From positions 1 to 64,000 of the forward strand of contig BCIX01000007.1 of the NCBI GenBank assembly GCA_001600095.1: a stretch of DNA of 64,000 nt, in the 5' to 3' direction. The position numbers and the translations under genes are program-made. This document shows positions 7,668 to 9,456 of the stretch, piece after piece. A model generated the notes under the pieces. That model saw only the letters and a program-made list of their open reading frames with translations. It was not told where the DNA came from and did not search any database. The first letter of the stretch is position 1. The number at the start of each line of letters is the position of its first letter. The DNA is from Bullera alba. Taxonomy: Eukaryota > Basidiomycota > Tremellomycetes > Tremellales > Bulleraceae.

Positions 7668-9456
7668 ATGTCCTGGAACTCGTATCCCGGACAAGGTCAA
7701 GGACACCATCAACAGCAATACAACGCTCCTCCTCCGCCTCCGCAGCAGCAGCAATGGGGCGCTCCTCCTCCTCCCATGGGATATGGGTACAACGCAGCAC
7801 CACCCCCACCGCCTCCTCAGTTCGCGGGAGGATATCAAGGGGGATATCAGACCCAAGGAGGATTTCAGACGGGTCAACAGCCGCCTCAGCACTATCAGCA
7901 GACTGGAGCGGGATACAGGCCTCCAGAGCACATGCAGCCGCAGCAATCGTACGGCGCTCCAATGGGTCCAGCGCCAGGTATGCCAATCCGAAGCCAACCT
8001 AGCTCCTGTAGCTGACAATATGATTCCAGTGAGACCTCCTACCTCTCAGCAACAATACGGTCCTCAGCTGCAAGGTGGCCATGGCCAGACATCGAGACCG
8101 TTCTTCCAGTATTCCCAATGTGAGCAGTCTCGGCACTTGGGACGACAATTTGCTGATAGTGTACAGGTACAGGAAGGAGAAAGGCTCTACTGGTATGTCC
8201 AGAAACAATACTCTGACTGACGACAGATCGGTATCAACTACATCGGCACACAACAAGCTTTGAGCGGATGCATCAATGATGCCATGAATGTCCAAAAGTT
8301 CCTGATCGGTGAGCAACGTTCAGCTTGGGATGAAGCTGACCTATCAGACCGATACCACTACAAAGCCGAAGACATCGTCATGCTCACAGACAATGCCCGG
8401 AATCAGAGGCAACTGCCCACTCGGGCCAACATGATTCAGGCGATGAACTGGCTCGTCAGCGGTGCTCAACCGAATGACGCCTTGTTCTTCCATTAGTGAG
8501 TCCGCGTGTGTGTAACACCACCAATCGTAATGCTGACACTGCCTGCAGCTCTGGACACGGTGGTCAGACTAAAGATCTAGATGGAGACGAGGACGATGGC
8601 TACGACGAGGTCATCTACCCGCTCGATCACAAGCAGGCAGGACATATTGTGGATGATGAACGTGAGTGACCCTTTTTTTGACCCAGCTGACAATCAGTGT
8701 GAGCGATATAGGTAAACTTTGACTGATTTCTAGGCACAACATCATGGTCCGACCTCTTCCACCGGGATGCCGACTGACTGCGATCTTTGACTCGTGTCAC
8801 TCGGGTTCATGCCTCGATCTGCCTTACATCTACTCTACGGAGGGTACAATCAAAGAGCCAAACCTCCTCGCCGAGGCTGGTCAGGGACTTTTGGGTGCTG
8901 GTATGAGCTATCTAAGGTGAGTCATCGATCCCCTAAGGCACTAACAACCCTGCAGAGGCGACGTCGGCGGAATGCTCAGTGGGGTCATGAAGTGAGTTAT
9001 GCTCCCTTAACGAAGCTGACCTTCAGACTCGGCAAGCAGGTCATGAACAATAGCACCGGAGCGAGGGAGAAGACCAAGCAGACCAAGACCTCGCCCGCGG
9101 ATGTGATCATGTGGTCGGGTTGCAAAGACTCTCAGACGGTGAATACCAATCCAGCGGACAGGGCTGACTTGCTAGAGTGCCGATACGTCCGAAGCTGGAA
9201 AGGCCACTGGAGCGATGTCTTATGTGAGTCACTGATACAAACGATGTAGCTGAGGGATAGGCTTTCATTGCTGCGCTGTCGAAATACCCACAGCAGAGCT
9301 ATGTCCAGCTGCTCAATTCGATCCGAGACGAGCTCAAGGGACGATACGACCAGAAGCCACAGCTATCGGCCAGTCACCGTGAGTACGCCGAGTGATCCGC
9401 TGTCTCCGAGCTTATGCCCTATAGCCATCGACACGAACGTGCTGTTCATTGCTTGA
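7668..9456 (+). CDS. MCA1: Metacaspase (type I, MCA1/YCA1 family)
   Basis: Type I metacaspase, a Ca2+-dependent Arg/Lys-specific cysteine protease tied to stress response, protein quality control and cell death in fungi. Thirteen exons: 7668-7977, 8030-8119, 8167-8192, 8227-8308, 8348-8495, 8549-8661, 8698 (one base), 8734-8916, 8956-8991, 9027-9138, 9176-9223, 9261-9378, 9425-9456; total 1299 nt, 432 aa. The N-terminal prodomain (1-105) is rich in Gln, Pro, Gly and Tyr. The caspase fold follows with GINYIGTQQ, catalytic His222 in YSGHGG, catalytic Cys278 in FDSCHSGS, then [15 protein letters not shown] and the VNLLY-like end DTNVLFIA. The one-base exon is forced by phase (see findings). The gene is convergent with the alcohol dehydrogenase, 134 bp away. 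Confidence 0.93.
8662..8733 (+). other. Two introns flanking a 1-nt exon in the metacaspase gene
   Basis: 8662-8697 is a 36-nt intron (gtgagt ... gctgacaatcag) and 8699-8733 a 35-nt intron (gtgagc ... gactgatttctag). Each has its own donor, CTGAC/CTGAT branch site and AG. The base T at 8698 joins C8661 and G8734 to make CTG (Leu257), giving DDE-L-HNIMV in the conserved segment before the catalytic Cys. Removing 8662-8733 as one intron shifts the frame to an early stop. Confidence 0.7.

Follow-up and report, generated by a model that had tools for sequence, protein, structure and literature searches.

The metacaspase locus

The DNA analysed here (the window; 64,000 nt, positions 1 to 64,000 of contig BCIX01000007.1 of Bullera alba, a yeast-like relative of Cryptococcus and Kwoniella) contains, in its entirety, a gene at 7668-9456 whose 13 exons join into a spliced coding sequence of 1,299 nt, a multiple of three as originally predicted. 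Pfam recognises a single Peptidase_C14 domain in the protein (148.9 bits; cut-off 21.4), the solved structures closest to the protein (7qp0 and 4f6o) are both Metacaspase-1 entries, and it is 88% identical to the K. newhampshirensis protein over 306 columns. Type I metacaspases are characterized by a caspase domain with His and Cys motifs and by an N-terminal region rich in Pro and Gln, and the protein has all of these, the motifs being YSGHGG and DSCHSG. The features that matter here are as follows (splice scores are compared with the sample of introns described in the next section).

7668..9456, plus strand: type I metacaspase gene (MCA1-like), 13 exons, 432 aa plus stop
8549..8661, plus strand: exon 6, ending in phase 1, with C8661 as base 1 of a Leu codon
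8662..8697, plus strand: intron 6, 36 nt, GTGAGT...CTGAC(A8690)AATCAG, splice score 7.25 (above 54.5% of sample introns)
8698..8698, plus strand: putative exon 7, the lone nucleotide T, base 2 of the codon C/T/G (Leu)
8699..8733, plus strand: intron 7, 35 nt, GTGAGC...CTGAT(A8726)TTCTAG, splice score 5.6 (above 42.5% of sample introns)
8734..8916, plus strand: exon 8, with G8734 as base 3 of the Leu codon; carries the catalytic DSCHSG
8666..8733, plus strand: rival single intron, 68 nt, donor GTGACC, giving DDE-RE-H, splice score 0.22 (above 2.6% of sample introns)

The coordinates, phases, lengths, donors and branch-like motifs originally given for the sites around C8661, T8698 and G8734 are all exact. 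T8698 has an AG immediately upstream and a GT immediately downstream, and both introns contain a branch-like site (CTGAC and CTGAT), the A of which lies 7 nt upstream of the intron end. In the proposed arrangement two minimal spliceosomal introns would split a single codon, one after base 1 and the other after base 2, and the removal of both would join C8661, T8698 and G8734 into CTG, placing Leu at DDE-L-H. T8698 is required both for the reading frame and for the conserved protein, and its conservation is seen in the DNA of a paralogue and suggested, by way of the proteins alone, in other species. Introns of this size are common within the gene (34, 35, 37, 37, 39 and 39 nt), the remaining ten introns being 34-53 nt long.

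Ranking of the possible splicing patterns

Splice sites were scored with a small purpose-written gene finder trained on 264 kb (the window together with another 200 kb of the same genome), the output of which, 83 genes with 457 introns, served as the sample for splice scores. This program is unable to model one-base exons and picked other parses in both metacaspase genes of the genome. The commonest donors among the 457 modelled introns are GTGAGT (241) and GTGAGC (58), and GTGACC is used once; introns of 34-39 nt account for 18 of the 445 gene-finder introns outside the metacaspase gene. On this scale introns 6 and 7 score as ordinary, whereas every rival parse has either a weak donor or an intron of 22-25 nt. 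As a separate observation, intron lengths in the same 264 kb (the window and loci L003-L022) look bimodal: of the 457, 25 measure 34-39 nt, a figure that includes one misparsed intron of the metacaspase gene, eight measure 40-44 nt and the main peak lies at 50-54 nt; several of the 34-39 nt introns cluster in a few genes, and both metacaspases are rich in short introns.

With exons 6 and 8 held fixed, and one or two GT-AG introns of at least 20 nt allowed, four stop-free in-frame parses exist, with splice totals of 3.86 for the one-nucleotide exon, the best, and of -1.24, -1.24 and -4.28 for the others. In a wider enumeration the outer sites were free within 8610-8790, introns could be 30-160 nt long and GC-AG and AT-AC introns were permitted. 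Of the 255 in-frame parses that retain the catalytic motif, only that with the one-nucleotide exon keeps the VDD-x-x-H spacing, and no GC-AG or AT-AC intron in the interval does so. The claim that C+T+G supplies a Leu at the proper place in the DDE-x-H spacing is supported, this spacing being constant in all 205 countable homologues outside the Tremellales (below). On splice-site score, reading frame, residue and spacing alike, the parse with the one-nucleotide exon comes out first. An equally good one-nucleotide parse arose in three of 40,000 simulated 72-nt introns in which the real last 20 nt were retained, and in none of the 134 modelled real introns of at least 62 nt. When the 264 kb were scanned for AG-N-GT, two of 1,935 sites passed thresholds that had been lowered after a stricter first version passed nothing, T8698 included; these were the T8698 site and one other, for which an ordinary single intron accounts.

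Removal of 8662-8733 as one 72-nt intron gives, as had been stated, a frameshift with a stop after 270 aa, and retention of intron 6 or intron 7 gives a stop at 257 or 258 aa, so that all of these predicted products end before the catalytic Cys278. Since the 72-nt skip intron scores 7.34, on a par with intron 6, skipping of T8698 may compete with its inclusion. In cDNA the junction of exon 6, T8698 and exon 8 would read GAACTGCACAAC / GATGAACTGCACAAC.

The same arrangement in the paralogous gene

There are two Peptidase_C14 matches in the genome, and the second lies on another contig (C4, locus L002, minus strand; numbered here on the reverse complement). In this paralogue A1994 is followed by a 55-nt intron, T2050, a 34-nt intron and C2085, which together would give the codon ATC (Ile); the two introns have splice scores of 7.34 and 4.25 respectively. 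With the T exon the protein reads IDDE-I-FDALVKPLP, the same spacing as in the first gene, and this is kept in one of 90 parses, that with the one-nucleotide T exon; an equally good one-nucleotide parse was found in 18 of 40,000 simulated 90-nt introns. A single 119-nt intron, the form chosen by the gene finder, scores 2.75 on splice sites only against 2.59 for the one-nucleotide exon parse, and removes FDALVKPLPA. Around its catalytic Cys the paralogue reads DSCNSG rather than DSCHSG, and after YSGHGTQ it has an additional stretch. The genome itself comprises 19.4 Mb in seven contigs, of which contig C1 makes up 8.0 Mb, recalling the giant chromosomes reported in a study of Kwoniella (PMC11185503).

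The two metacaspases are identical at 185 of 371 aligned residues, and eight of the 11 modelled introns of the paralogue (whose exon 1 and N-terminus are uncertain) coincide in alignment column and phase with introns of the first gene, including both introns that flank the T; the homologous codon appears to carry the T exon in both genes. Set side by side and judged by eye, with no score computed, the intron letters of the two genes look dissimilar, which argues against recent conversion. The simplest reading would be one arrangement inherited from before the metacaspase duplication. A date for the duplication was sought in trees and not obtained, the branch of the paralogue being very long and the Tremellales backbone being without resolution.

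Annotation of homologues at the split codon

The sample of homologues consisted of 240 proteins (the best 120 of 4,548 matches and the best 120 of 967), of which 227 have both motif anchors, 11 lack the catalytic anchor and two lack the DD anchor. The H position was set by distance and is occupied in some rows by F or another residue. In these best-match lists DD-x-[M/I/L]-H was found in 205 of the 205 countable rows outside the Tremellales label (M in 171, I in 23 and L in 11). Of the 23 rows labelled Tremellales, 22 could be counted (the other is P0053, a MAG protein), and 15 of these are aberrant and seven normal, one of the normal rows being Cryptotrichosporon, which NCBI taxonomy places in the Trichosporonales; Kockovaella, Papiliotrema and Kwoniella were verified as Tremellales and the other labels were assigned by us. 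The comparison with related species that had been called for was made at the protein level, and among countable named Tremellales species 15 of 19 are aberrant exactly at the T-exon codon, the normal ones being Naematelia, C. wingfieldii, Dioszegia and C. depauperatus. P0053 (Tremellales MAG), P0032 (Phaffia) and P0104 (Marasmius) have lost residues around this codon, possibly through gene-model errors; in P0032 and P0104, which stand outside the count, this part is shorter than usual.

The aberrant rows fall into two groups. Three (P0009, P0017 and P0019) have longer inserts, and 12 have exactly one added residue, reading RN, RE, RE, CE, CE, CE, RD, CE, SE, SR, SE and CE; K. heveanensis and K. 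botswanensis, for example, are annotated DDEREH. An annotator unable to place a one-base exon may read the first letters of the intron as coding, and N/GT.. misread in this way would give R, C or S when N is C, T or A. If N/T/N' is restored, all 12 rows with one added residue decode to Leu or to Met/Ile, as elsewhere, although the power of this test is limited, since codons that start with C decode to Leu, and those that start with A to Met or Ile, whatever N' is; the informative points are that Gly, from a G-first codon that would encode Val, occurs in none of the 12, and that all five Cys rows have Glu next, which implies a purine and fits TTR (Leu). The Tremellales rows are moreover related to one another rather than independent, and their gene structures are deduced from annotated proteins. 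Read with these limits, the pattern suggests that a one-base T exon is present in many Tremellales and hidden by annotation artefacts, its presence in species other than the source being inferred from proteins. Many Kwoniella and Cryptococcus proteins in the databases are probably wrong near the active site, including the UniProt MCA1 of C. deneoformans B-3501A (P0017). As these entries look wrong at exactly the T-exon codon, and as the paralogue has a T exon at the homologous codon, the arrangement is probably ancient and overlooked.

Unspliced reading frames and a transcript-like contig

A search for short proteins gave 108 matches, 107 of them new. By motif count, 28 of the 107 lack the DD motif and 79 have it, 56 of these in normal form and 23 in some other. 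When the 23 were inspected by eye, eight proved to be matches to an earlier LTDD/LVDD stretch, leaving 15, of which four (P0291, P0296, P0300 and P0312) have DDV followed by other residues and were taken for cases of an intron of different phase in other groups. In the other 11 (P0273, P0299, P0330, P0337, P0339 and P0342-P0347) DD[E/D] precedes R, C or S; these are apparently unspliced reading frames and fit an intron after codon base 1, that base being C, T or A. P0330 repeats the boundary of exon 6 and its donor as VDDERE and differs from the window reading frame at one internal residue, besides the start, so that the boundary recurs in DNA of another source. When residues are read back to bases, a single intron would suit two of the frames, of 46 nt (A/../TG) in P0344 and of 54 nt (C/../TT) in P0273, while P0271 fits an acceptor one base upstream of the His codon. 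Some relatives thus apparently have the first intron alone, in the phase that it has in the metacaspase gene, and if these single-intron readings are right, the second of the two introns, one base downstream, was either added to an older one or lost beside it. P0299, a short reading frame with AICPLDYEQAGLIIDDDSE..VHDLLV, recalls the paralogue (EAICPLDFQENGLMIDDE) and may represent an MCA2-like gene that has the first intron but lacks the second.

Two protein searches aimed at transcript pieces, one of them listing its best 120 of 967 matches, listed no cDNA recognisable as Kwoniella or Cryptococcus. P0030, a contig of 1,017 nt, would be a spliced transcript, judging from its uninterrupted frame. 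Its residues 93-269 match Kockovaella at 166 of 177 places, and where DDDSDTNRHEIMV stands in the Kockovaella annotation, P0030 has D-LHEIMV. Its residues 1-62 match P0124 at 58 of 62 places, however, and the contig looks chimeric, a P0124-like first part being joined to a Kockovaella-like rest, so that the break could lie near the key residue. P0030 is taken as slight support for inclusion of the T.

Discussion

From the letters of the DNA and the proteins of relatives we consider it very probable that T8698 alone makes up a coding exon of a type I metacaspase gene, in agreement with the original prediction: this is the best parse, it recurs in the paralogue and the annotations of relatives fit Leu, Met or Ile at the codon. 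The alternative nearest to it, which the original prediction missed, is a single 68-nt intron from the donor GTGACC at 8666, shifted by 4 nt, with the junction GATGAACGTGAGCACAAC and one added residue (DDE-Arg-Glu-His). It is stop-free and in frame, and the same DDEREH is annotated in the two Kwoniella species named above, as is one added residue in 12 Tremellales proteins in all. It would, however, have to use a donor that is among the weakest of the sample, break the spacing kept in every countable homologue outside the Tremellales and replace the M/I/L residue, and it leaves unexplained both the strong internal CTGAC..CAG/T/GTGAGC, rarely matched in simulation, and the arrangement in the paralogue; we regard it as improbable. 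Still less probable is an error of one base in sequencing or assembly, in or beside an exon, in which case one 72-nt intron would interrupt the real gene here and its Leu codon would be an ordinary one. The high score of that intron, which misses the frame by only one base, speaks for such an error, but the internal splice signals would then be coincidence, P0330 shows the same boundary of exon 6 and donor from a separate source, the paralogue has the same arrangement on another contig and the annotations of most named Tremellales fail at the same codon.

We give hardly any credence to the two remaining explanations. A micro-exon of 10 or 25 nt starting at 8687, after a first intron of 25 nt, is stop-free and in frame, and to this extent the 25-nt exon offered as an alternative in the original prediction is an available parse; the 10-nt form was moreover chosen by the gene finder, which lacks one-nucleotide exons. 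Besides the 25-nt intron, this reading needs a weak second donor (0.5, above 3.3-3.5% of introns) and, in the 25-nt form, a second intron of 22 nt, and it adds at least three residues to a constant spacing (DDEPDNQH in one form). That the locus is simply frame-broken, for example a pseudogene, without rescue by splicing, would agree with the loss of the conserved spacing in every parse tested that lacks the one-nucleotide exon, but every other exon is open and joins its neighbours without a break in frame, neither the His nor the Cys motif is missing, and both the domain score and the identity to the K. newhampshirensis protein are high.

Assuming that T8698 is an exon, AG8696-8697 and GT8699-8700 lie one base apart and the factors for both introns could hardly be bound simultaneously. 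The likely route would be intron definition, with the introns removed one at a time in either order, and this is plausible because small introns permit recognition across the intron; that introns 6 and 7 are spliced, and in which order, is inferred. Guo and Liu put forward a similar sequential argument for APC11 (PMC4674806). Stwintrons are likewise described as two adjoining introns removed in succession (PMC12403724, PMC9024468, PMC8469720), but in those the internal intron sits inside a splice signal of the external one. Introns 6 and 7 do not belong to this class, as no splice signal is interrupted: GT, branch-like site and AG are intact in both, with one coding base, T8698, between them.

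One-base exons were described in the original prediction as almost undocumented, but they are better documented than that. In Arabidopsis APC11 one base between GT-AG introns is essential for the frame, as shown by cDNA and by GFP constructs in protoplasts, and an older annotation had wrongly taken in 10 intron nucleotides (PMC4674806), an error resembling the kind inferred for the Tremellales metacaspases. The metacaspase likewise has a lone base between GT-AG introns that is needed for the frame, but whereas the APC11 base lies in an annotated intron of 422 nt, in another gene and kingdom, the two minimal introns here total 71 nt and are known from DNA. One-nucleotide micro-exons of plant APC11 and VPS55 are reported as conserved over land plants and absent from reference annotations, with gain and loss seen through duplicates and intron losses and with confirmation by RNA-seq and RT-PCR (PMC8831610); one of two VPS55 copies lacks the exon, whereas both metacaspase paralogues appear to have it. 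In fungi, Fusarium CYP621A, a P450 gene, is reported to have a single G exon within a 139-nt region (F. graminearum), with 18 SRA reads (PMC12940212). That case shares with ours a nuclear gene, the middle base of a codon, a conserved motif and a phase mismatch against homologues as the clue, but it is a read-confirmed G in a P450, and ours is a T in two paralogous proteases of the Basidiomycota. One-base exons as such are therefore already known, and the metacaspase T exon is new; no report of a one-base exon in a metacaspase was among the matches listed in the literature on Cryptococcus and Kwoniella micro-exons and on one-base exons. In C. neoformans MCA1 (CNAG_04636) and MCA2 have been named in a paper with a section headed as finding no virulence defects in metacaspase mutants, the main text of which is without the word intron (PMC3219705), and a comparative study of Cryptococcus and Kwoniella is described as having predicted genes with BRAKER2 (PMC11185503).

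More speculatively, and in our view rather doubtfully, the one-base exon may predate the duplication of the two Tremellales metacaspases and have been retained in both, also in human-pathogenic Cryptococcus, as a switch. Inclusion would take two sequential splicing events and skipping one, and as skipped or retained products would end before the Cys, the efficiency of splicing would determine how much active protease is made. On the reading that we prefer, one-base exons now extend to the Basidiomycota and to a pair of paralogous caspase-like proteases, in a setting of very short introns, and the metacaspase case would constrain models for the use of splice sites one base apart. The relatives that seemingly have one of the two introns would be natural comparisons for the origin of such an exon.
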